DNA of 64,000 nt from Gemmatimonadota bacterium. Its GTDB lineage: Bacteria; Gemmatimonadota; Gemmatimonadetes; Gemmatimonadales; GWC2-71-9. The notes beneath the pieces were generated by a model. It saw only the letters and a list, made by a program, of their open reading frames with translations, made no database searches and was not told the DNA's origin. Position 1 is the first letter of the stretch. Each line of letters starts with the position of its first letter. The position numbers were made by a program, and so were the translations under genes. The stretch is taken from positions 269,247-333,246 of the forward strand of contig SHZT01000001.1 of assembly GCA_009692185.1 (NCBI GenBank). Direction: 5' to 3'. Below are positions 7,717-20,450 of the stretch, in pieces.

Positions 7717-10226
7717 CGCCTGTCCCGTGACACGACCAGCTCCGTAATCACGGTCTCATCCAGCCGGGCGAGATGTGCCCGCGTAATCGGCCTAGGCCAT
7801 GTCCAGGTTCCACCAACCCGGTCACCGGTGAGATTCAGGCACCGCGCCACCGTACCGGGTCCCTCTTCCCGGGGCTTGAGCGCCAGGAACGACAAGCCGG
7901 CACCGGACAGTTCCGGGCCTGCGATTTCTTCGGGAAGCCCGATCGCGTAGCGGAGCATGAGCCCCGCGGGCGCCGCGTGAAACTCCTCGGCCAGGGCCTC
8001 GATCGCGTCCCACTCCGCCGCACCGCTGTGCCCATTCACCGTTGCCGCCGACATCGCCAACTCGAGCCGGAAATGCCCCAGCTCCTGGGCAAGCGGCGTC
8101 GCCAGCGGCCACGCCGCGTGCCCGGGCCGCGCGCGCAGGTCACCGCGGGAGAGGTCCCCCACCGCGCGAAACACCGTGATCGCCAGCGCCCCGTCGGCGC
8201 CGAGTTCGTACTCGCAGGACCCGCGGACGAACACCGTATGTCCCGCGGCCGCCACGCTCACGTACCGATGCACCGGCGCCGTCGCCACTGGCCATTCGCG
8301 CGGAAACGCCTTGGGGTCATGCCATTCGTAGGGGCGCGCCGCGGGGCCCAGCGGCATGTCGGCCACAGATTCCAGGGCAGCACCCTTGGTGACCGGGACT
8401 GAGGGCCGAAACCTCACCCGCAGGCGGTGATTCCGCTGGAGATTGACGCCCTCGATGGCGAACCGCAGCAGCGAAGAACCCGCATCGAGGCGGGTGCTCA
8501 CCCTGCCGCGCGTTCGCTCCCCCACCTTGAACTCGCGCGCCACGGCGGCGACGAGGGGCCCCCGCCACACTACTTGAGGAGGAGACCAGCGCGCCCGCAC
8601 CGCCCGGTCGCCGGCCACCGGCTCGAACGTGTACGTGTCGCCTTCGTCACGATCGCTTTCGATGTCCAGCGGGAGCAGGGCGAGCCGGGCATCGGTCGCG
8701 CGCACCGGAGGAAAAGAAGGCGCGCGGGGTCCGCCCTTGGCGTCGACTCGCAGCGCCTTTGCGCCGAAGGCCGGCAGTTCGCCCCCGTCCACCGCGACGC
8801 GAAACGCGCGGACCCGGTCCTGGTCGGGATAATGATCGGGACTGTCGAGCCGCTCGTAGGCGTCGAATTCCTCGAGCACCTGCACCGGCGCCGTCGATCC
8901 ATCCGCTGCGACCAGGTACGGCAGGTGCACCGGCGGGCGCGTTGGCTTCCGGGTGTCTGGCCGGCCGACGAGCACGTCCCGCTCGAAAACCGTGACCGTC
9001 GCCTCGACGACGCGGCGCACCGGCCGGGGCGAGGGGTTCACCAGGACCAGCGCGGGCTTCCACGCGGCCCGATCGCCCCGCGCCCGCGATCGGTCCTGGC
9101 CCAGCCGGTCATGCAGCGCGTCCACGAGGAGCCCTCGTGCCTGGGCCGAGACGGACTCCGCCCGTTGTATGACCTCGGTGGCCACGGTGTCGCTCACCGA
9201 GCCGCAGATCGAATCGTGGAAATGGTTCAGCAAATGCTCACGCCACGCCGCTCGCAGGACGGCGCGACGGCCTTCCCCCGCGGCGGACAGCTCGGCCATG
9301 ACCACCTGGGGCTCGGCCCACCGGGTCAGGAGCAGGTCCGCTTCGCGAACGGCGCGCTTGAGACCGGCCCGGGTAGAGTGCGTGCCTTGCAGTGTCCAGG
9401 CATAGCGGGAGGAAAAGCGCAGCTCGCCGGCAACCCGGGGCACGCGGAGTTGCCGCGGAACGGTTGCGAAGTACTCGAGCGGCGACCCGATCCGGAACTC
9501 ATGGTGGCGGGCCAGCTTCCGGAGCGCCGCGACCCGCGCGGGCAGGTCCGGGTCCGGCGCGTGGTGGTCCGCGCCGGCGGGCAGCAGTAATGAGTCTGCC
9601 GCAGCGCGAGACACGAGCATCGTCTCGATCTCGTTCCAGCGGGCCTTGAGCGCCTTGGTTTCGCCGGGGAGCGACACGCCGATCTCGTAACCCGGTGGTG
9701 GCAGGTGATGGACCAGCACTTCGGCACCGTCGGGCGCGATCCACCGGAACAGGTCCAGGTCCTGGCCAGGCTCGCCGCCGTAACCGCGCCAGAGAATCGC
9801 GTGCCGAATGCCGAACCCGCTGAGCAGCGTGGGAAGGGTTGCCGGGTGGCCGAACGCGTCCGGGCTGTAGCCGAGCGGGAGCCAGCCGCCCAGCGAGCGG
9901 CCCCGGCGGCGGCCGAGGAGGAGATTCCGGACGAGTGATTCCCCGGACGAAAGCAGTTCGTCCGCCAGGACAAACCACGGGCCGAGGAGGAGGCGGCCGG
10001 CCTTTACCAGCGCGGCGAGCCGGACGGCCTGTTCGGGGCGGACCTCGAGGTAGTCGTCAGCGAGAACGGCCTGGCCGTCGAGCAGAAAGCAGCGATAGTC
10101 GGGGTTCTGTTCGAGCGTGTCCACCAGCCGGTCCAGGGCGGACACCAGGCGCTGGCGGAACCGGGCGGCGGGCTCGTACCACTCACGGTCCCAGTGCGTG
10201 TGCGGAACGACGATGACGAGCGCTAT
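7659..10226 (-). CDS. Glycoside hydrolase family 38 alpha-mannosidase-like protein (non-canonical start)
   Basis: Zinc-dependent retaining alpha-mannosidase-like enzyme of about 855 residues. Just inside the start lies VVPHTHWDREWYE, the GH38 zinc-binding motif, followed by LGPWFVLADELLSSGESL and GYSPDAFGHPATLPTLL, where the Asp is the expected nucleophile. The first ordinary start in frame is a GTG at 10145, which would delete the zinc motif. No ATG, GTG or TTG occurs in frame over at least the preceding 200 bases. An ATA at 10224-10226 overlaps the upstream TAG as ATAG and would give a family-like N-terminus, so I extend to it; the true initiation codon is unproven. No export signal is visible. 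It follows the FHA-protease gene on the same strand. Confidence 0.8.
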   Translation of the reverse strand: MALVIVVPHTHWDREWYEPAARFRQRLVSALDRLVDTLEQNPDYRCFLLDGQAVLADDYLEVRPEQAVRLAALVKAGRLLLGPWFVLADELLSSGESLVRNLLLGRRRGRSLGGWLPLGYSPDAFGHPATLPTLLSGFGIRHAILWRGYGGEPGQDLDLFRWIAPDGAEVLVHHLPPPGYEIGVSLPGETKALKARWNEIETMLVSRAAADSLLLPAGADHHAPDPDLPARVAALRKLARHHEFRIGSPLEYFATVPRQLRVPRVAGELRFSSRYAWTLQGTHSTRAGLKRAVREADLLLTRWAEPQVVMAELSAAGEGRRAVLRAAWREHLLNHFHDSICGSVSDTVATEVIQRAESVSAQARGLLVDALHDRLGQDRSRARGDRAAWKPALVLVNPSPRPVRRVVEATVTVFERDVLVGRPDTRKPTRPPVHLPYLVAADGSTAPVQVLEEFDAYERLDSPDHYPDQDRVRAFRVAVDGGELPAFGAKALRVDAKGGPRAPSFPPVRATDARLALLPLDIESDRDEGDTYTFEPVAGDRAVRARWSPPQVVWRGPLVAAVAREFKVGERTRGRVSTRLDAGSSLLRFAIEGVNLQRNHRLRVRFRPSVPVTKGAALESVADMPLGPAARPYEWHDPKAFPREWPVATAPVHRYVSVAAAGHTVFVRGSCEYELGADGALAITVFRAVGDLSRGDLRARPGHAAWPLATPLAQELGHFRLELAMSAATVNGHSGAAEWDAIEALAEEFHAAPAGLMLRYAIGLPEEIAGPELSGAGLSFLALKPREEGPGTVARCLNLTGDRVGGTWTWPRPITRAHLARLDETVITELVVSRDRRQVRFTAEPRAPVTVIIES

Positions 10227-12337
10227 CTCAGCCCCAGTTCGTTCCTGGCCTCGAGCGGCAGGAGGGGAATCGCGAAGCGGACGGGCACGGCGGAGCCCAG
10301 TCCCCGGCGATCCTCGCCGGTCTGCCCGGCGAAGTGGATGGCCACGACTTCCCCGACCCCGTTGAAGACGGGGCTCCCGCTGGAGCCGGGAATGGTGAAG
10401 CCGTCGAACCGGATTCTTTCGGGCGAGACCCGCGCGAAGATCCCCCGGCTCATGGTGACCTGGATAATGTGCGAGTTGTCGTCACCCGCCGAGGACATGC
10501 CGCCGGGGAACCCGATCGCCGCCGCGGGTTCTCCCTGGGCCACGTGCGTGCCGGCCCAGTCCAGCTTCGGGATCACTGGCCCCTTGTAGTCCCGAATCTT
10601 GAGGATGGCGATATCGGGGCCGTCCGGCGGTGAGACTTTGACAACATCGGCCTTGAGAGACTGCTCCGGGAACTTCGTTTTGTTCATCGTGACGCGGATA
10701 TCCGAAGGCACGATGCCATCGGGAAGCCCCACGTGCCGGTTGGTAATCACGTAGCCGCTCGCGGTGACGACGAACCCGGTGCCGTCCTCCCCCAGGTACC
10801 ACCTGGTGGAGTCGGCGCCGGAGTAGGTGCACTGCCCCGACGGGTGGGGACAGTACGTCACCGAGATCAGGCCAACCGCGGGGCCACTTTCCTGCGCGAT
10901 CGTGGGCAGGAGGTCCTTCGAATCGCCCCGCGAGCGCATCTCAGCGGCGATTTCCGCGTTCTTCGTTTCCTGGGCCTTGAGCGCCCGTTCCTGGCCGCGG
11001 ATCGCGGCGCGCAGGCTGTCGAGCATCGCCTGGGACTGGCGATCACCGGAATTGGAGGCGGTGGCCCGCGCCGCGGCCTCGGTCAGCTCATTCTTGAGCC
11101 GGGTCAGGTCCTGCTGGCCGGCCAGCCGCAGGGAGTCGCCCGCGGCCAGCTGCTGGGCCAGCGCCGACTCGGCCTGCCGAAGCGAGGTCTCCATCGCCGA
11201 CGTCTTCTCGGAGGCGGCGGCCAGCGCGCGACTCTGTTCCTGTAACGCCGACGTCGTGACCTGCTGCTGCTCGTTGTACCAGTAGAACCCGCCCACGGCG
11301 CCGATCAGCACCACCACGAACGACCACACCACGATCCGCAGTTTTGAGGCGCTCTTCTTGGTGGTCTCCTCCATCATCTCGCGGAAAAAGACCGTCTTGC
11401 CCTTGCCCGCAAAACTGCGCCGGGGCATGCCGGGCTTCTTGGCCGCCTGGGCCTCGGACGAAGGGGCCGCCGCCGGTTTCTTCCCGACCTCCTGTCGCTC
11501 CCCGCCCGGCAGCTTGAGCGCCTCGACCACGAGATCCGGCCCGCCGGACCCGAGCATGACCTTGTCCTCGATCTTGATGGTGTGGTCGCCTACCAGGAGC
11601 ACGTCGTTCACGTAGGTCCCGTTCCGGCTCTTGAGATCCCGGAGCACCGCCCGTCCGTCCAGGAGAACGATCTCCGCATGTACCCTGGATACCGACGTGT
11701 CGCCCTCCCGCAGCGGGCGGAGTTCGCACTCCTCGCCGCGGCCCAGCCGGAGGCGCCCACCGCGAGCCTCGTACTTGTTTCCGGTCCGGGCCTCGCGCAT
11801 GGAAATTTCCATGGCGGGGGGAGCCGGCGGCGGTGGTGGTGGGGCTGGGGGTGGAGGTGCCGGGCGAAGGGGCGGGGCCGCTCCGCGCGGCGGGGACGGG
11901 GGCGCGCCTTGGGCACCAAGACCATGCATGGGAAGCGTGGCGTCGTCCAGGGATTTCGTGGGCATGGTGGGCGCCGACGGCCGCGCCGCCCGGACGCCCT
12001 CGATGACCGTGTTGGCGATGCGCCGCTTTTCGACTGCTTCGACCCGATACCGGGGGCCGCGGTCACCCAGGCCAATCACCGCACCGGGAGTCACCTGCTC
12101 CGGCTTCCCCTGCGACAACAGCTTTTCGTTGAGCGTCGTTCCGTTCCGGCTTCCCGAGTCCTCGACCAGCCAGCGCCCGTCCCGGTGTACCAGGCGCGCG
12201 TGGTGACCGGAGACGACGTCGGCGCCCTGCCCGGTGATATGCAGCTCGCACTCCGGATCTCGCCCGAGCCGTATTTCCGACAGCTCGAACTCCCGCACCG
12301 TTCCGGTGGCCTGATCGCGTATTGAGAGGTACGTCAC
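10223..12337 (-). CDS. FHA-FHA-membrane-serine protease fusion
   Basis: Signalling or stress protease of 704 residues. Two FHA phosphothreonine-binding domains lie at about 1-100 (GRDPECELH, SGSRNGTTLN) and 178-275 (GRGEECELR, KSRNGTYVND), joined by a proline-rich linker (146-175). One membrane helix spans about 333-354, then a probable coiled coil to about 470. A trypsin/HtrA-like domain follows with an apparent triad H535 (ITNRHVG), D575 (GPDIAIL) and S653 (PGSSGSPVF). No PDZ domain is evident. The predicted topology puts FHA in the cytoplasm and the protease in the periplasm. It is divergent (98 bp) from a Ser/Thr kinase, a likely source of its phosphothreonine ligands. Confidence 0.85.
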   Translation of the reverse strand: MTYLSIRDQATGTVREFELSEIRLGRDPECELHITGQGADVVSGHHARLVHRDGRWLVEDSGSRNGTTLNEKLLSQGKPEQVTPGAVIGLGDRGPRYRVEAVEKRRIANTVIEGVRAARPSAPTMPTKSLDDATLPMHGLGAQGAPPSPPRGAAPPLRPAPPPPAPPPPPPAPPAMEISMREARTGNKYEARGGRLRLGRGEECELRPLREGDTSVSRVHAEIVLLDGRAVLRDLKSRNGTYVNDVLLVGDHTIKIEDKVMLGSGGPDLVVEALKLPGGERQEVGKKPAAAPSSEAQAAKKPGMPRRSFAGKGKTVFFREMMEETTKKSASKLRIVVWSFVVVLIGAVGGFYWYNEQQQVTTSALQEQSRALAAASEKTSAMETSLRQAESALAQQLAAGDSLRLAGQQDLTRLKNELTEAAARATASNSGDRQSQAMLDSLRAAIRGQERALKAQETKNAEIAAEMRSRGDSKDLLPTIAQESGPAVGLISVTYCPHPSGQCTYSGADSTRWYLGEDGTGFVVTASGYVITNRHVGLPDGIVPSDIRVTMNKTKFPEQSLKADVVKVSPPDGPDIAILKIRDYKGPVIPKLDWAGTHVAQGEPAAAIGFPGGMSSAGDDNSHIIQVTMSRGIFARVSPERIRFDGFTIPGSSGSPVFNGVGEVVAIHFAGQTGEDRRGLGSAVPVRFAIPLLPLEARNELGLR

Positions 12338-12435: not shown

Positions 12436-14232
12436 ATGTCCGAAGAGACGCCCCGCTTCATCCCGATCACGGCGCCGTCCGGCGGTTCTCCGCCCGCGGC
12501 GGCGCCCTCGTTCGCCGACCTGTTCGACCTGGCCGCCACGGCGTTCAAGGGACGGCTCAATATCGAGCGGGTCGTCGGGGCGACCGACGAGCGGGCGCTT
12601 CTCTCCTGCCACGACACGGTGCTCAAGCGCCGGGTGGCGCTCCGTCTGCACCTCATGCCGGGGACGCCGGGCCGCCGCTGGTTCGAGAAGGAGACCGAGC
12701 TCCTGGCCAGCCTGGACCATCCGGCGATCCGCACCACGTTCGCCGGCGGGTACGAGGGCGCCATTGCCTGGCGGATCAGCAAGTGGATCGAGGGCGAGAG
12801 CCTGGCCGAGGCCGTGGCCCGCGGCCCCCGATCGATCCCAACCGTCGTGACCATTGCCCGGGACCTGACGGCCGCCCTGGAGTACGCCCACACCGAGCAC
12901 CTGGTCATCCGCCGGATCATTCCCGACACCCTGATGGTGGACCGTGCCGACCGCCCGGTCATCACGGATCTCCGGTTCGCCAACGGGTGCCTCGGCTTCG
13001 TGGCACTCCCCGACGCGCCTTCGAGCGAGCCGTTCATTGCACCCGAGGCGCGGGGCGGGAAGCCGGGGGAGCCCGCGGCGGACATCTATGCCGCGGGCGC
13101 CCTGCTCTACTACGCCATGACGGGAGTGGCGCCGGCCCTGGACCCCAACGCCATTCGCCCCGCCCGGGAACTCAGGCCCAATTGCCCCCGGGTCATCGAG
13201 CGGGTCATCATGCGCGCCCTGCGGGGGGACCCGGGGGCACGCTACCTGTCCGCCGCGGAAATGGCGGAGGACCTGGCGTCGGACCTGGGGGATTACGAGG
13301 TGCCCAACCGGCTGGTGCCCCTCGGCACCGGGGCGGACGACTCCCGCATGCAGGAAAAGCGGCTCCGCCGGGCGTTCGGCGACGAATACGAGCTGCTGGA
13401 TGAGCTGGGCGCCGGCGGGTTCGGCCGCGTGTACCGGGTGCGGGATCTTCGTCTCGAGCGGGACGTGGCGCTCAAGATCCTGCACCCGTTCCTCACGGCG
13501 AACCCGGCCGTGGTGGAGCGGTTCCGCAAGGAAGCCCAGCTCGCAGCGCGCCTGGACCACCCAAACATCGTGCAGATTTTCGACATCGGCGGCCGTGGCG
13601 GGCTGCTCTGGTACACCATGGAATACGTCAATGGAAAGAGCCTGGCGTACCTGGTAGATCACGAAGGGCCATTCCCGCTCGACCGCGTGACGCGCGTCAT
13701 GCTCGAGTCCCTCTCGGCGCTCCAGCACGCCCACGCGGGCGGGCTGGTGCATCGGGACATCAAGCCGGAGAACATCATGCTCGACGGTGCCGACGGCGGG
13801 GTCCGGATCGCGGACTTCGGGTTGGCGCTGGCGTTCGGCGGGGAGCGGTTCGGAGGCGCGTCGTCATCCCGCGCCGGGACGCCCGAGTTCGCCGCCCCGG
13901 AACAGCTGATGGGCGAGAACGTGGATGCCCGGGCAGACTTGTATTCGCTTTCCGCGGTCGGGTATTTCGCCCTGACCGGCAACCCGCCCTACCCGGGCGG
14001 CACCATCGAGTCCATTGCGGCGCGCCAAGCGGCGGAACTCCTGCCCGACCTGTCGGAGGAACGGAAGGACGTCCCGGACTGGCTCGGGGAAATCCTGGAG
14101 AAGGGCGCGTCGCATCGGCCGGCGGACCGGTTCCAGACGGCCGACGAATACGCGGCGACGCTACGGCGGGCGATCCAGTGGTGGCAGGTGAATCCGATGC
14201 GGTGGGTGAAGGAGTTCTGGAAGGGAAAGTAG
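12436..14232 (+). CDS. Tandem pseudokinase - Ser/Thr protein kinase
   Basis: A 598-residue Hanks-type kinase with two kinase folds. The C-terminal copy (about 318-590) is complete: LGAGGFGRVY, VALKIL, HRDIKPENIML, DFGLAL and an APE-like AAPEQL. The N-terminal copy (about 35-290) keeps the overall layout but has VALRLH in place of VAxK, VIRRIIPDTLMV in place of the HRD-x4-N loop, and DLR in place of DFG, so it should be catalytically dead. No transmembrane helix is evident, suggesting a cytosolic protein. A TATCTT hexamer sits 8 nt before the ATG with no clear Shine-Dalgarno, so the message could be near-leaderless. Probable partner: the divergent FHA protein. Confidence 0.9.
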   Translation: MSEETPRFIPITAPSGGSPPAAAPSFADLFDLAATAFKGRLNIERVVGATDERALLSCHDTVLKRRVALRLHLMPGTPGRRWFEKETELLASLDHPAIRTTFAGGYEGAIAWRISKWIEGESLAEAVARGPRSIPTVVTIARDLTAALEYAHTEHLVIRRIIPDTLMVDRADRPVITDLRFANGCLGFVALPDAPSSEPFIAPEARGGKPGEPAADIYAAGALLYYAMTGVAPALDPNAIRPARELRPNCPRVIERVIMRALRGDPGARYLSAAEMAEDLASDLGDYEVPNRLVPLGTGADDSRMQEKRLRRAFGDEYELLDELGAGGFGRVYRVRDLRLERDVALKILHPFLTANPAVVERFRKEAQLAARLDHPNIVQIFDIGGRGGLLWYTMEYVNGKSLAYLVDHEGPFPLDRVTRVMLESLSALQHAHAGGLVHRDIKPENIMLDGADGGVRIADFGLALAFGGERFGGASSSRAGTPEFAAPEQLMGENVDARADLYSLSAVGYFALTGNPPYPGGTIESIAARQAAELLPDLSEERKDVPDWLGEILEKGASHRPADRFQTADEYAATLRRAIQWWQVNPMRWVKEFWKGK

Positions 14233-14243
14233 GACGGACGGTT

Positions 14244-15041
14244 TTATTGCTGGTTCTGAAATTCTCCCCGCTTGGTCGTAATCAGTATCACCCCGTTCGA
14301 GGCCCGCGAGCCGTACATCGCCGCGGCGGACGCGCCCTTCAGCACCTCGATCCGCTCGATGTCGTTGAGATTCAGGTCCGCGATTCGGTTGAGCGGGTTC
14401 TCCTGCATGGACGCGATCACGCCGGCCTGTCCGCGGGTCACCGCGTTCGTTCCCCCCGGGATCGCGACGTTGCTCACGATGATGCCATCCACGATGAACA
14501 GCGGGTCGGCGGACCCCAGGAGGGACGTGACGCCCCGGAGCTGAATCTTCATTCCCCCGCCGGGCGCGGCGCTGCCGCTCGTCGTCTGCACGCCGGTCAC
14601 GCGTCCGCGGAGAATCTCGTCCACGGACGACATGGGCACCCGATTGAAGTCCTCGCCGTGGACCTCGCCGACGGCGCTGGCGAGGTTCCTCCTGTCCACG
14701 CCGGTCCCCTGCCCCGACACCACGACCTGGTCCATCCGGAAATAGTCGCGGAGCAGCGCCACGTCGATGGCCTGCATGGTGACGGGGACCCGCACCTCGC
14801 GCGGCTGGTAACCGATGCTCTGTATCTGGAGCGTGACTTCCCGCACGGGGACGTACAGCACGAACGTGCCGTCGTAGTTGATGGGTGTCTCGATCTTGGC
14901 GCCGAGTACCCGGACCCTGCCCGCCGGGAGCGCATTCGTGGTGAGGGAATCGTCCACCCGCCCGATGACCAGGCGCGTTTGCGCCGCCAGCGGGGCGACC
15001 CCGCCGAGGAGAGAAAGGACGATCGCTGCGTGTCGAATCAT
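14244..15041 (-). CDS. Barrel-less SusC-like TonB plug protein
   Basis: A 265-residue exported protein with a Sec signal ending ...APLAAQ, a CarboxypepD-regulatory-like beta domain (about 20-100) and a TonB receptor plug domain (about 105-260). Plug hallmarks are RGRVTGVQTT, PGGGMKIQLRGVTSLLG, PLFIVDGIIV, LNDIERIEVLKGASAAAMYG and SNGVILITTKRG. It stops directly after the motif that begins the beta-barrel in full SusC proteins, so it cannot form a channel. The ATG at 15041 follows an AGAGGTG ribosome site; the longer frame upstream lacks a signal peptide. It closes the minus-strand RagAB cluster 1. It could be a decay remnant, but the frame is clean and the ribosome site intact. Confidence 0.85.
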   Translation of the reverse strand: MIRHAAIVLSLLGGVAPLAAQTRLVIGRVDDSLTTNALPAGRVRVLGAKIETPINYDGTFVLYVPVREVTLQIQSIGYQPREVRVPVTMQAIDVALLRDYFRMDQVVVSGQGTGVDRRNLASAVGEVHGEDFNRVPMSSVDEILRGRVTGVQTTSGSAAPGGGMKIQLRGVTSLLGSADPLFIVDGIIVSNVAIPGGTNAVTRGQAGVIASMQENPLNRIADLNLNDIERIEVLKGASAAAMYGSRASNGVILITTKRGEFQNQQ

Positions 15042-15119
15042 GGGCGGCACCTCTTGCGGGCCTGCACTTGGAATAACCACGTCCCGGGCTGGCCTGTCAA
15101 CACGCCGCACCGACCTGCA

Positions 15120-15944
15120 TCACCGGATTCCCGTCGTGCCGTTGGTCCAGATCGCGACCACGCCGCAGTTCCCCGCGCCAAACGCCGTCGGGGTTGTCGC
15201 CGGTCCGCTGTACACCTCGAGCGCGACGATCGTCCGGACGGGAATGTCATCGACTGAGAGCGTGCTGCGCGCGCCATCCACGAAGAGCTCCATTTGGTCG
15301 CACGTGTCACCCGTGAACGCCCCCGACCACACCGGGCGACTGTTCTGCGCTGTGCAATCAAACGCCGCGCCCTTCTGCCACCGCCCGGTGTCATTGCACT
15401 GTGTCTTCACCTTGGCGCTGCGTTCCACCAGGTTGCTCGTCTTCCGGGCGCTGGCCCGGGCAATCTCGTCCGGCGTCATGAAGAACCCGGCCAGGCCAAG
15501 CTGTTTTCGCCGGTAGAAATCGTCCAGCTGGGGATAGCGGCGAACCTGCTCGGCCTCGACCGCGATGGCGTCAAGCTTGGTGGCCACGGCCCGCAACCGC
15601 ACGGTCCCGACATCCACCTCGATGGCCGACATCGAGAACGGCACCGGCACGCGCACCGGCACGAACCCGATTTGCCGCACGACCATGACGGTGTCAGTCG
15701 GGCGAACGCGCTCGATGCGGAATCGCCCGTCATTCCCGGTACGGAACTCCTCGTTGCCCGCCCCCTCGAAATAGAGGATTGCCCGCTGGACGGGGCGGCG
15801 GGAGAGGGAGTCCACCACCTGCCCGGAGACGACCCGGTCCGGCGGAGCGACGACCTGGGCCGCGGCAGGAACGCCCAGAAGAAACCCCAGGACCACAAAC
15901 ACGACGCCCCCACGCCAGGGGCGCGGGGGCGTCGTATCAATCAT
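15120..15944 (-). CDS. CarboxypepD-regulatory / plug-like exported protein
   Basis: A 274-residue exported protein of unknown role. The signal peptide ends LGVPAAAQ; a CarboxypepD-regulatory-like fold follows (about 35-110, SGQVVDSLSRRPVQRA) and then a divergent plug-like domain ending in DDIPVRTIVALEVYSG and CGVVAIWT. Four cysteines in the mature part (in KTQCND, FDCTAQ, GDTCDQ, AGNCGV) could form two disulfides. It begins 10 nt after the susD-like gene and shares its strand, so it belongs to the RagAB operon. A strong hairpin lies at its first codons. Similar short plug-like proteins are frequent in Gemmatimonadota as I recall; no function is assigned here. Confidence 0.75.
   Translation of the reverse strand: MIDTTPPRPWRGGVVFVVLGFLLGVPAAAQVVAPPDRVVSGQVVDSLSRRPVQRAILYFEGAGNEEFRTGNDGRFRIERVRPTDTVMVVRQIGFVPVRVPVPFSMSAIEVDVGTVRLRAVATKLDAIAVEAEQVRRYPQLDDFYRRKQLGLAGFFMTPDEIARASARKTSNLVERSAKVKTQCNDTGRWQKGAAFDCTAQNSRPVWSGAFTGDTCDQMELFVDGARSTLSVDDIPVRTIVALEVYSGPATTPTAFGAGNCGVVAIWTNGTTGIR
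15901..15935 (-). other. Strong hairpin at the 5' end of the plug-like gene
   Basis: The arms ACGACGCCCCC and GGGGGCGTCGT form an 11-bp perfect stem around a 13-nt loop. It starts about ten bases into the plug-like coding sequence and about 20 nt after the susD-like stop. No long U-run follows on the minus strand. It may lower expression of the downstream genes relative to susC/susD by blocking ribosomes or stopping polymerase. Confidence 0.6.
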
Positions 15945-15954
15945 GCGGAGCGGG

Positions 15955-17466
15955 CTAGATGCCACCCTCGCCGCCCAGCGGACAGCCTGCAAGGTTCTGG
16001 TCCCGCCGGAAATCGCATTCGCCAATGTCGAAGGGCAGTGACGGCCAGATGCGGTGGGTGGGCTGGTCACGTGGAAGCGTGAGCAGCTTGCCGTACCGCG
16101 CCAGGTCTACCCAGCGATGACCAAACTCGTACACCAGCGAGTAGCGCTTCTCGTACAACAGTTCATCGAGGAGCGTCGGCGCGGCAACCGTCGGGACGTA
16201 GGGATCCCCGATCGGATTGAGCACGCCCGAGTTGACGCGGATCAGGTTGATGTCACGAATCGCGACCGAATTGTTGCCCCGGCCGATGTTGGCCTCGGCC
16301 CGGAGGAGAATCAGCTCCTCGTTCCGGATGATCGGGATCGGCGTATTTGCGTCGGAGACCGCCTGCCCGCTGCCGGTGCCGGAGATATTCCACCGAAGGT
16401 GCGAGGAGAGGCCGAGGATGCCCTTGAAAACAATCATGTCGATCGTCTTCCGGAGGAGGCGGGCATCCCGAAGGACACCGCCGCTCTGGATCTGGGCATC
16501 CGTTTCGAGCGACGGATGGGCGAACCGTTGGCGGCCCGTGGCGTCGAGCAGGCCGTTGGTTCCGTCAGCCGATGCCGGTCCATACGTGTGCTTTGGGCCG
16601 ATGTCGAGGGTGGCCAGCGCGACCACGGGCGGTGGGCCCGCCGGAGGCGTGGTTGCCGGGCTGACCCATGTCAGCGCCAGCGCCGTCAGCGCGTTGTTCC
16701 AGTGCGTCGCGGCGTTGGGGACGTCCCAAGTCGCGGCGTAGACTTCCACGCGCGCCTTGAGCGCCCGGTTGAACTGACGGAACGTCGCCGGCGTGTTGAA
16801 TGCGGCACCGGCCTGCGCCGTCTGGAACCCGCGTGTCATGGGGAACGTAAATGCCGTTCCGCCCGCCAGCAGGTGGGTCTGGGCGGTATCCAGCAGGGCG
16901 ACGATGTGATCCAGGACCGCCTTGCCATTCACCCAGGGAGCCAGCGGGCCGAACTTGTCCCGGTTGACGTCAATAAACCCGCCGAGCGAATAACGCACTC
17001 GGAGCATCGCGTGGTAGTGGTACGCCATGATCGTCTTGACGTACCCGCGGACGGCTTCCTTCTGGACGGCCGACATACCCGTGGGGCTCACCGCGAGGTC
17101 CGGCACCTTGTCCAGCGCACTGAGAATGGAATAGCTGTTGCGAATGTCAGAGTAAGGCCAGTACCCGCCGCTGGCGATCGGCCCGATGAGCGGGACGGTC
17201 ACGCTGCGTACTTCGGTCGGATCCAGGTTGTACGCATTGCGACCGTATGTCTCCAGGCCTTCGTGGTTCGCCCGGATGCCCCGGAGCAGCCCAGTGGCCA
17301 TGAGGTTCACGACGCTCGCATCAGGATTGAGATCCAGCAGGTTCGCGTCGGCGGAGGTGTAGTTCGGGACGTCGAGGTTTTGGCACCCCAGCGTCACCAG
17401 GACGGCACCCATCGCGGCGATGGAACCGATCTTGCCCGCCCAGCGGGCACGTGTCGTAAGAGCCAT
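15955..17466 (-). CDS. SusD/RagB-family outer-membrane lipoprotein (cluster 1)
   Basis: Surface-exposed substrate-capturing lipoprotein of 503 residues that would act as the lid of the adjacent SusC-like transporter. The signal ends AVLVTLGC with the lipobox Cys at about 28, followed by QNLDVPNYTSAD. The C-terminal RagB/SusD domain shows IPIIRNEELILLRAEANIG, RDINLIRVNSG, ELLYEKRYSLVYEFGHRW and LARYG. TPR-like helices fill the middle. It starts 2 nt after the susC stop with the same TTCTGACCATG junction as cluster 2. Ligand unknown; RagAB pairs in this phylum are not restricted to glycans. Confidence 0.92.
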   Translation of the reverse strand: MALTTRARWAGKIGSIAAMGAVLVTLGCQNLDVPNYTSADANLLDLNPDASVVNLMATGLLRGIRANHEGLETYGRNAYNLDPTEVRSVTVPLIGPIASGGYWPYSDIRNSYSILSALDKVPDLAVSPTGMSAVQKEAVRGYVKTIMAYHYHAMLRVRYSLGGFIDVNRDKFGPLAPWVNGKAVLDHIVALLDTAQTHLLAGGTAFTFPMTRGFQTAQAGAAFNTPATFRQFNRALKARVEVYAATWDVPNAATHWNNALTALALTWVSPATTPPAGPPPVVALATLDIGPKHTYGPASADGTNGLLDATGRQRFAHPSLETDAQIQSGGVLRDARLLRKTIDMIVFKGILGLSSHLRWNISGTGSGQAVSDANTPIPIIRNEELILLRAEANIGRGNNSVAIRDINLIRVNSGVLNPIGDPYVPTVAAPTLLDELLYEKRYSLVYEFGHRWVDLARYGKLLTLPRDQPTHRIWPSLPFDIGECDFRRDQNLAGCPLGGEGGI

Positions 17467-17468
17467 GG

Positions 17469-20450
17469 TCAGAAGCCCACGTCGACGTTGAACCAGAAGC
17501 TGCGGCTCGGCGGGTATGCGCCAAGCTCGAGGGCTCCGGGCAGAATGTTGTTAAATCCGAATGTGTTCGCCTCCGGGTCGCCGCCGCGATAGGGCGTGAA
17601 CTGGAGGAGGTTCCGGCCAGACACGCCGATCCGCACGAACCGAGCACCAGCCCAGAGCTTCTTGTACACGGCGCTCGGGACTTCGTACGTGACCTGGACT
17701 TCGCGGAGCTTGAGGTACGACGCGTCCTTGAAGAACACGGAGGTCACCTGGCGGTACCAGTCCACCCGCTGCTTGCCGATCTTCGTGCCGGTGATCGGCT
17801 CAATCACATCGTGGTCCGGCGCGTTCTGCGACAGGTCGTTGTGGCGCCACGTTCCGGCACCCAGCATCCCGCCGTTCTGCCAATCCCACAGCGTGTAGAG
17901 CTTGACCGCGTGGTAGGACAGGTCGTTGGCTACCCCGATCGTGAACTTGGGCGTCATCTCGCCGATCACGTGCGGGTTGAGCGTAATCGGGAGCGCCGCG
18001 AGGAAATTCGCCATCGAGCCGGGCATGGTGTCGTTGGCCCAGAGCGCGGTGGGCGACTCACCCTCGCGAATCCAGAAGGACCCGGTCTGGTAGCCGCCGC
18101 TCTGGAACGCGGTCGTCGAAAGCTTGGTAACCAGGCTCTTGGACTTCGCAAACGTCACCCGCGTGTTCCATCCGCTGGTCGCGGTCTGGAGCGGAATCAG
18201 ATTCAGCGTTACTTCGGCGCCGCGGGTACGAAGACTGCCGCCGTTGAACCGTTCGACCGAGAACCCCGTGGTGGGGGCCAGGGCGCGGTTCAAGAGCAGG
18301 TCGTTGATCGTCTTCTCGTACACGGTGAACTCGAGGTTGGCGCGGCTGCTGAACAGTGTCGCGTCAATCCCGGCCTCGAACTCGCGCTGCCGCTCGGGGT
18401 GCAGGTTCGGGTTCGCCAGGGTAGTGCCCTGCGCGAATGTCCCCAAGCCGTCCATCTGGCTTGAGCCCAGGTTGATGAACTTCTGTCCGTACTTGGGCTC
18501 GTTCCCCGACTGCCCGAAGGCGGCGCGGAGCTTGAGTTCGTCCACCGGCCCGGGAACGCTCACGAAGCGGAACGACGCCGACGCCTTGGGATACCAGAAC
18601 AGCTTGGTCGGGTCGGCGTTCGTGCTGCTCTGGTCTGCCCGCATGCCCACCGTGAGCATCAGCTTCTCATGCCAGGTCAGGAACTCTTCCTGCCCGAAGA
18701 AGCCGAAGTCCCTGACGCCCGTGTGGTCTTCGCTCGCCGTACGGGTCGTACCGGCCTGGACCGCCATGACGCCGGCCAGGAGGTTCTCGCCGATCGAGCG
18801 GGAGGTGCTCAGGTCGCGGGTCTCGTACTGCGCCCCGAACGACGTATTGGCCGTGAACACGGCCGACGAGGGCTTGAACGTGTGCACCAGGTTCGCGCCC
18901 AGGTTCAAGTTCAGGTTCTGGCTGAACGCAATGGCGTAGGTGCCCAGGCGTCCATCCACCGCCTCGAACTGCAAGACCGGCGGAGACTGCACCACGTTCT
19001 TCTGCGTGAAGTTGTCGAGCCCGCCGCTGCCGATGAGCTTGACCTGGTGGGCGGAGGTGTTGATCACGTTGAGCTGGGCGCGGCCGGCCACCAGGGCCCG
19101 CCACACCTGCTCGTTGTTCTTCGCGAGCGACGCCGTGTGCAGAAAGTTACTGACGCCCGGGAAGGGATTCACCGGCCAGCTGTCGTCGGCCCTCTGGTGC
19201 AGGTCAATGACGTTGGGCGTCTTGTTGACCTCCATGCCGTAGCTGGTCCCGCCGGTGTTGTCGTTTCCGGTGAAGCCGCGGTCATTGGCGTTGTGAACGA
19301 CCTGCGAGCTCGCGGAGAACGTCATGCGCGAACCGACCGTCTGGTCAATGTTGATGCGCAGCGACTGCTTGTCGCTGAAGGTGTTGGTGATGATGCCGCC
19401 CTCATGCTTCGCGAGCACCGAGGCGAAATAACGGGTCGTCTCGGTTCCGCCGTTGACGCCAACCGACGTCTCGTACGACAGCGGATGATTGTTATACAGC
19501 GCGGACTCGTGATCGAAGCCCTGGTAGCCTGCGCCCTTCCAGAACGAGGCGCCGGCGACATACGCCGTGACCAGGCTGAGCGAATCCTGGAACTGCCGGT
19601 AACCGATCCGGTTGGACAAGGACGGTGTCCCGAAGCGCTGGGTGACGTTGAACTGCGGCGTACCAACCCGGCCCCGCTTCGTCGTGATGATAATGACACC
19701 GTTCGAGGCCTTGGAACCGTAAATGGCCGACGCCGACGCGCCCTTGAGCACTTCGACGTTCTCGATGTCGTTGGGGTTCAAGTCCGCGATACGGTTGACC
19801 GGCGTCTCCTGCGCGCCGGCGCTGATCGAGCCGGACGCGCGGGTTACCGCCGTCGTTCCGGGCGGGATCGCGGCATCACTCATGATGACACCGTCCACCA
19901 CGTACATCGGCTGGTTCTCGCCGATGATGGACGTGACACCACGCAAGCGAACCCGCATGCCGCCGCCGGGAGCGCCGTTATTCGCCAGGATCTGGGCGCC
20001 GGCGATCTTGCCCTGGAGCGCCTGGTCGATGCTGGCGGTTGAGACCTTGGTGGCCTGCTCGGCCGTGACCGTCGAGACGGCGTTCGCCAAGTTGCGACGC
20101 TCGATACCCGTCGCCTGGCCCGTCACCACGATGGCCTCGAGCTGGAAGAAGTCCCGGTCGAGCCCTACCGCGACAGAGTTCTGCCCGGCAGCAACCGGAA
20201 TCTCCTTGCGCTTGAACCCGATACTCCGGACCGTGAGAATGACATCCCGGTTCGGGGCGGCAAGGGTGAACGTGCCGTCGTCCTTGATCGTCGTGCCGAT
20301 CGTGGTACCCGCGACGGCCACCTGACCCGAGACGATGACGTCCTTGGTCAGGGAGTCGATCACGCGTCCCGTGATGATGCGGGTCTGGGCCCCGGCCTGC
20401 GATGCAAGCGCCAGGGTCAAAGCCGCGAACAGACCAATCTTGAATCTCAT
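17469..20450 (-). CDS. SusC/RagA-family TonB-dependent outer-membrane transporter (cluster 1)
   Basis: TonB-dependent receptor of 993 residues taking up a ligand across the outer membrane with its SusD partner. Signal peptide ends ASQAGAQ; CarboxypepD-regulatory domain about 22-100; plug about 105-250 with PGGGMRVRLRGVTSI, PMYVVDGVIM, NDIENVEVLKGASASAIYG and SNGVIIITTKRG; then a C-terminal 22-strand-type barrel. It ends in an aromatic residue (VDVGF), as expected for outer-membrane barrels. I chose the ATG at 20450 because GGAGGAACC precedes it and the signal peptide starts there. A TTGACA/GATATT promoter lies about 120 bases upstream. Confidence 0.93.
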   Translation of the reverse strand: MRFKIGLFAALTLALASQAGAQTRIITGRVIDSLTKDVIVSGQVAVAGTTIGTTIKDDGTFTLAAPNRDVILTVRSIGFKRKEIPVAAGQNSVAVGLDRDFFQLEAIVVTGQATGIERRNLANAVSTVTAEQATKVSTASIDQALQGKIAGAQILANNGAPGGGMRVRLRGVTSIIGENQPMYVVDGVIMSDAAIPPGTTAVTRASGSISAGAQETPVNRIADLNPNDIENVEVLKGASASAIYGSKASNGVIIITTKRGRVGTPQFNVTQRFGTPSLSNRIGYRQFQDSLSLVTAYVAGASFWKGAGYQGFDHESALYNNHPLSYETSVGVNGGTETTRYFASVLAKHEGGIITNTFSDKQSLRINIDQTVGSRMTFSASSQVVHNANDRGFTGNDNTGGTSYGMEVNKTPNVIDLHQRADDSWPVNPFPGVSNFLHTASLAKNNEQVWRALVAGRAQLNVINTSAHQVKLIGSGGLDNFTQKNVVQSPPVLQFEAVDGRLGTYAIAFSQNLNLNLGANLVHTFKPSSAVFTANTSFGAQYETRDLSTSRSIGENLLAGVMAVQAGTTRTASEDHTGVRDFGFFGQEEFLTWHEKLMLTVGMRADQSSTNADPTKLFWYPKASASFRFVSVPGPVDELKLRAAFGQSGNEPKYGQKFINLGSSQMDGLGTFAQGTTLANPNLHPERQREFEAGIDATLFSSRANLEFTVYEKTINDLLLNRALAPTTGFSVERFNGGSLRTRGAEVTLNLIPLQTATSGWNTRVTFAKSKSLVTKLSTTAFQSGGYQTGSFWIREGESPTALWANDTMPGSMANFLAALPITLNPHVIGEMTPKFTIGVANDLSYHAVKLYTLWDWQNGGMLGAGTWRHNDLSQNAPDHDVIEPITGTKIGKQRVDWYRQVTSVFFKDASYLKLREVQVTYEVPSAVYKKLWAGARFVRIGVSGRNLLQFTPYRGGDPEANTFGFNNILPGALELGAYPPSRSFWFNVDVGF

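Follow-up and report, generated by a model that had tools for sequence, protein, structure and literature searches.

Conserved SusC-type plug proteins without a barrel beside a SusCD pair in Gemmatimonadota

Plug proteins that lack a barrel, encoded by genes of their own, are conserved beside a SusCD pair of a Gemmatimonadota bacterium, and those of the type of P0001 are very probably functional. Two such proteins, P0001 and P0002, follow the pair in the window, by which we mean the whole 64,000-nt stretch of DNA that was analysed. They are of different kinds, P0001 being a SusC derivative and P0002 a member of a large NTE-plug family. The explanation that we favour, with a probability of roughly 0.4, is that P0001 is a plug derived from SusC and kept by selection that acts in trans, and that P0002 belongs to a family of stand-alone NTE-plug proteins. 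Plugs are usually thought inseparable from TonB-dependent transporters, and a short plug gene readily passes for a fragment. If separately promoted and selected plugs do stand beside SusCD pairs, they would be natural material for studying how a plug leaves its barrel or is replaced in trans, and some annotations of 'truncated receptor' would hide real proteins. The open-access literature searched gave no prior account of stand-alone plugs, which is not proof of absence.

Table 1. Features of the SusCD and lone-plug locus in the window.
Feature	Positions	Strand	Basis
P0003, SusC/RagA-type TonB-dependent transporter of full length, NTE and plug included	17469..20450	-	TIGR04056, 461.6 bits (cut-off 368.25)
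SusD/RagB-like lipoprotein	15955..17466	-	PF07980, 30.1 bits (cut-off 23.1)
P0002, secreted NTE and plug-fold protein, 274 aa, four Cys	15120..15944	-	Profile matches, alignment, AlphaFold2 model
TTGACA, putative -35 element of a lone-plug promoter	15095..15100	-	Motif
P0001, lone SusC plug of 265 aa with signal peptide, NTE, TonB-box-like segment and plug	14244..15041	-	Profiles, orthologs
Kinase-like gene, convergent conserved flank	12436..14232	+	68% to ortholog; label from sequence motifs
Protein with FHA-like and trypsin-like segments, conserved flank	10223..12337	-	53% to ortholog; labels from reading

The genes lie on the minus strand in the order SusC, SusD, P0002 and P0001, and a plus-strand gene converges beyond P0001 (Table 1). 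Two open frames for barrel-less plugs after a RagAB pair had been claimed from the letters of the DNA (the sequence-only reading), and both were recovered on this strand. Signal-peptide-like N-termini were seen by eye in both proteins, in line with that reading. Its claim of intact ribosome sites is only half right: AGAGGTG stands a few nucleotides before the ATG of P0001, but P0002, which starts 10 nt past the SusD stop, has no clear Shine-Dalgarno sequence. A scan of the window for Shine-Dalgarno sequences carried no information, as it gave 92 matches where 151 were expected. In the convergent kinase-like gene the first kinase domain seems, on reading only, to be degenerate, and an intact second one comes after it.

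P0001 scores above the cut-off against Plug (PF07715; 65.4 bits, cut-off 23.9), against CarbopepD_reg_2 (PF13715, the NTE; 36.7 bits) and against the SusC signature TIGR04057 (66.1 bits, cut-off 46.2), which sits at the junction of plug end and barrel. Against TIGR04056 it reaches 199.8 bits, short of the 368.25 of a full transporter, and only positions 4-207 of 981 are aligned. These matches stop at the plug end, which agrees with the earlier description of a clean SusC N-terminus ending there. The protein closes with NGVILITTKRGEFQNQQ directly before its stop codon, and no barrel can follow, because the stop of the convergent gene lies only 11 nt further on. In the AlphaFold2 model the NTE is confident (pLDDT block means 95-98), and P0001 may not fold alone, since confidence is poor over most of the plug (block means 42-84), where the model is too weak for judging details of the fold.

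Orthologs were sought in 61 genomes (the own genome and 60 relatives), among which G001 is the sole other genome of the genus. There the locus (L091) has the gene order of the window, both flanking genes included, and the P0002 ortholog is directly followed by that of P0001, which lies in a 284-aa open frame. Local identities between the two loci are 66% for SusC, 54% for SusD, 69% for P0002, 68% for the kinase-like protein and 53% for the FHA protein; at about 55-56% to its ortholog, P0001 has diverged no further than SusD and the FHA protein have. The P0001 ortholog has 267 aa and ends in TKHGRFIGEN before its stop, the barrel being absent. According to the sequence-only reading, orthologs running on into a barrel would mark these genes as truncation remnants; the ortholog ends at the plug, and synteny of the locus, orthologs and selection all support genuine barrel-less plugs. 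Between SusD and P0002, G001 carries a SusC start fused in frame to a SusD end (L091, about 12903-13175), which is the scar or leftover of a deleted second SusCD unit. The SusCD array has therefore been reshuffled in G001, and the two plug genes stayed.

The second genome also bears on the suspicion that the barrel of P0001 was lost through misassembly or a sequencing error. Short frames of such origin do exist: those in G065, G079, G090 and G002:C136 lie at contig ends, judged by coordinates or by reading, frameshifts seem to account for those in G036 and G062, and none of them is taken for a lone plug. P0001, in contrast, has the same end and the same neighbours in an independent genome. Misassembly is refuted by this ortholog, and an artefact of assembly or annotation is left with a negligible chance.

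Stand-alone plugs beside RagAB in other Gemmatimonadota had been suggested as a check, and a search for them found more lone plugs. Within the genus, a second family (B) has one member on contig C25 of the own genome (L093:2248-2973) and one in G001 (L092:13679-14389). In a tree of 84 rows these two and family A, made up of P0001 and its ortholog, group as one clade (support 97/94) near the SusC plugs of the genus. P0002-like genes adjoin the family B plugs as well. Overlapping the end of the family B plug in L093 is a small secreted CarboxypepD_reg-like protein of 126 aa (L093:1868-2248), for which PF13620 stays below its cut-off. A third family (C), with NTE and plug, is found at L102:7909-8631 in the own genome and at L165:11528-12433 in G001, where the neighbours are shared; both members end in NNGVILIYTK plus R or H before the stop. 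A profile search across 102 genomes of the family, with the best matches listed and lower-scoring lone plugs possibly missed, added a lone plug after the SusC and SusD of G021, an ortholog of it in G100 (same genus as G021) and another lone plug in G089. Few SusC-type lone plugs lie outside the genus: among the matches listed, they occur in two genomes of one genus and one of a third. Within the own genome, 8 of 32 Plug matches fall in frames of at most 382 aa.

The lone plugs may also be expressed separately. TTGACA occurs six times in the window, both strands counted, against 14 expected. One copy lies upstream of P0001, and all four lone plugs of families A and B have the motif 55-78 nt upstream of the start. 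Other copies in the window (20590, 30834 and 30870) are on the strand of, and upstream of, two SusC genes, and TTGAC was present within 110 nt upstream in only a minority of the SusC genes examined. As a motif of six bases, this would suggest separate expression of the lone plugs. A scan for promoters gave no hit in this region, owing to its strict -10 rule.

Selection was gauged by NG86 only, since ML estimates of dS were unstable. Omega is 0.39 for the P0001 pair, 0.38 for the family B pair, 0.29 for the family C pair, 0.15 for the P0002 pair and 0.11 for the G021/G100 lone-plug pair (148 codons); seven SusC plug pairs gave 0.08-0.24. In the lone-plug ortholog pairs dS is saturated, yet no stop has arisen. 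Judged from these codons, P0001 and its kin are under purifying selection. Of 48 plug positions that are near-invariant in 43 SusC proteins, P0001 keeps 41, its ortholog 42 and the other four lone plugs 37-39, and the SusC proteins themselves keep 38-48 with a median of 47. The C-terminal plug part is the best conserved in lone-plug pairs, with 33/43 (0.77) and 35/40 (0.88) residues identical against 0.44-0.61 outside it. In P0001 this is the plug core, which comes after the variable loop and in SusC leads directly into the barrel.

These values can be set against the view that P0001 is what truncation left of a SusC gene, without function or in slow decay. The SusC-SusD fusion in G001 illustrates that SusCD arrays do suffer deletions, and the lone plugs of families A and B are 2-5 times faster in dN than SusC plugs. 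However, the frames are intact, the synteny is kept, in four ortholog pairs omega stays below 1 although dS is saturated, and P0001 has a promoter-like element of its own. A remnant is largely refuted by synteny, selection and orthologs, and we regard it as very unlikely.

A segment of P0001, DQVVVSG, stands at the place of DEVVVTG in Bt1763 and resembles a TonB box. A lone protein of NTE, TonB box and plug could then serve as a decoy or adaptor that binds the C-terminal domain of TonB, either titrating it or handing it to certain SusC proteins. Apart from the segment, such a role draws on P0002-like proteins fused to TonB_C (PF03544) in the lineages L059/L054 and L126, and on a fusion of M56 and plug in G021, which hints that plugs may be signal receivers. 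Nevertheless, over six SusC ortholog pairs the TonB-box region (18 aa) is identical at 104/108 sites, whereas two lone-plug pairs reach 10/18 and 11/18. This drop is larger than that of the C-terminal plug part, with an interaction z of 2.2 and p of 0.027, a weak result for which sites were pooled over pairs with two lone-plug pairs. Competition for TonB loses support, since no part of SusC is better conserved among orthologs than the TonB-box region, which in lone plugs is much relaxed. A further family, the plug lipoproteins described below, has neither NTE nor TonB box by eye. We consider the decoy or adaptor unlikely.

P0002 had been read as a CarboxypepD/plug-like protein with four cysteines, and the four cysteines are there, with a fold predicted to be that of an NTE and a plug. 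Its score lies just above the cut-off for CarboxypepD_reg (32.6 against 32.3 bits) and below that for Plug PF07715 (14.9 against 23.9 bits), which relatives exceed (e.g. 42.6 and 37.0 bits). When its AlphaFold2 model (mean pLDDT 85.2) was compared with known structures (Foldseek, VIA-align 2), residues 37-121 matched NTE/carboxypeptidase-D-like domains, and plugs of TonB receptors were matched by residues about 141-273 (6z9a_B, Z 10.0; FyuA, 9.7; Fiu, 9.6). On the plug of 6z9a_B, residues 146-269 align with an rmsd of 3.4 over 110 positions, for which a Z of 10.0 is middling. As modelled, this region is a plug fold, and it matches FyuA and Fiu too. The sequence of P0002, compared with solved structures, gave nothing credible. 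P0002-like matches (E <= 0.001) are present in 52 of the 61 genomes, some rows being SusC N-termini, and 37 of 40 homologs end at most 26 aa past a C-terminal CGxxxIWT-type motif, the 40 being closed frames with a C-terminal Cys-Trp/Tyr motif, a filter that favours complete stand-alone proteins. C260 is invariant and C215 nearly so in a 33-row alignment, and a disulfide probably stabilises P0002. Given the widespread homologs, their common C-terminal end and the conserved cysteines, P0002 is an ordinary member of a widespread family.

A search for related loci with P0002 returned only two distant named ones, in a Roseisolibacter sp. and a Gemmatimonadaceae MAG. The P0002-like proteins with a C-terminal TonB_C are encoded at L059:1129-2256, L054:1129-2256 and L126:3021-4562; Pfam was run on those of L059 and L126, and the tail of L054 is nearly the same as that of L059. 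Another P0002-like protein (L037:1042-2301, in G019) is extended at the C-terminus by 159 aa, which read like a small beta-barrel and have no Pfam match.

Barrel-less plugs also occur as lipoproteins. Two short plug proteins of G021 have no NTE and carry a lipobox-like VSGC (L163, L164). A profile of the two found its best matches in G007, G031, G017, G006, G016, G060, G039, G051, G028 and G026, almost all in short frames. All 13 genes fetched, from 10 genomes, end at the plug. A cysteine was seen by eye at the end of the signal segment in each of the 13, and a strict pattern matched nine, one of them at a false site. In each of the six loci examined with wide flanks (L168-L173) the plug gene is accompanied by a SusCD pair: SusC and SusD are followed by the gene for a protein of 1132-1149 aa and this by the plug gene, with one more gene between in L170. 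The plug position in three of these six was taken from match coordinates, the gene picker having missed the plug or chosen an antisense frame. The six loci lie in G007, G051, G060, G039, G016 and G017. These lipoproteins are found in two taxonomic families, and they adjoin SusCD pairs in more than one genus. G021 also encodes an M56 (BlaR1-type) peptidase with a C-terminal plug domain (L166:3836-5053), which by reading adjoins a BlaI-like regulator.

The many barrel-less plug families, namely P0002-like proteins, plug lipoproteins, the M56 fusion and the TonB_C fusions, would suit a repurposed periplasmic binding or sensory module, in which the plug fold binds a ligand or a protein without any barrel. 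For P0002 itself no reading is likelier than this one. P0001, however, has retained sequence specific to SusC, among it the TIGR04057 signature at the junction with the barrel, and as an account of the lone plugs we hold such a module rather unlikely.

We return to P0001 as a plug that acts in trans. Its ancestor would have been a SusC plug that lost the barrel before the split between the two species of the genus; since then it would have been maintained as a secreted protein of its own, with a promoter-like element to itself. Both P0001 and P0002 would work in the periplasm. P0001 would act at SusC barrels from the periplasmic side, where it may occlude or replug a barrel whose own plug is displaced, or compete with the cis plug, and in this way tune SusCD transport. 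Among single mechanisms for P0001 this is the likeliest, because of the precedents, the plug core that is kept, the relaxed TonB box and the placement beside SusCD, and we propose it tentatively; a generic module for binding or sensing comes next, and then a TonB decoy. A study on SusC reports that its plugs have the TonB box after the NTE and can leave the barrel in vitro, that removal of the TonB box gives a growth defect like SusD deletion, and that removal of the NTE is dominant-negative (PMC7782687). There is no obvious vacancy for a trans plug, nor a visible candidate for the empty barrels that the sequence-only reading had soluble plugs occupy, since the neighbouring SusC keeps its own plug and a search of G000, G001 and G021 found no plugless SusC, bar one fragment at the end of contig G001:C33. 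Taken together, the lone plugs suggest an action exerted within the envelope, either on importers or on the supply of energy to them. A wider scheme, which we find doubtful, is that several independent barrel-less plug families of Gemmatimonadota seal, gate or read SusC-type importers from the periplasmic side. Such plugs would be secreted or lipid-anchored and stand beside SusCD or in sensor or TonB_C fusions, and the pair in the window would be one instance.

Compared with SusC/RagA transporters (TIGR04056; PF13715, PF07715), P0001 corresponds to the N-terminal quarter, TIGR04057 signature included, but it lacks any barrel and is therefore no transporter by itself. P0002 has the architecture (PF07715 plus PF13620) that presumably goes under the database name 'TonB-dependent receptor plug domain-containing protein', although it falls below the Plug cut-off itself; a functional study of this type was not found in the literature searched. 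The isolated plug of FepA is likewise a plug without barrel, but an artificial laboratory construct; it is reported to have behaved as unfolded and still bound ligand at 5 µM (PMC11658791). In the T9SS of Flavobacterium, Plug is described as a separate periplasmic protein that blocks an outer-membrane channel (PMC10202324). To P0001 this is a functional analogy; the T9SS channel (SprA/Sov) is a different one. BamP of the Flavobacterium BAM complex is described as periplasmic, with a loop that threads into the BamA barrel and with several paralogs (PMC12611786). The BamP model NF053692 has no match in P0001 or P0002 at E <= 1, and the structural model of P0001 matches 9n2d_E, a chain of such a complex that we infer to be BamP.
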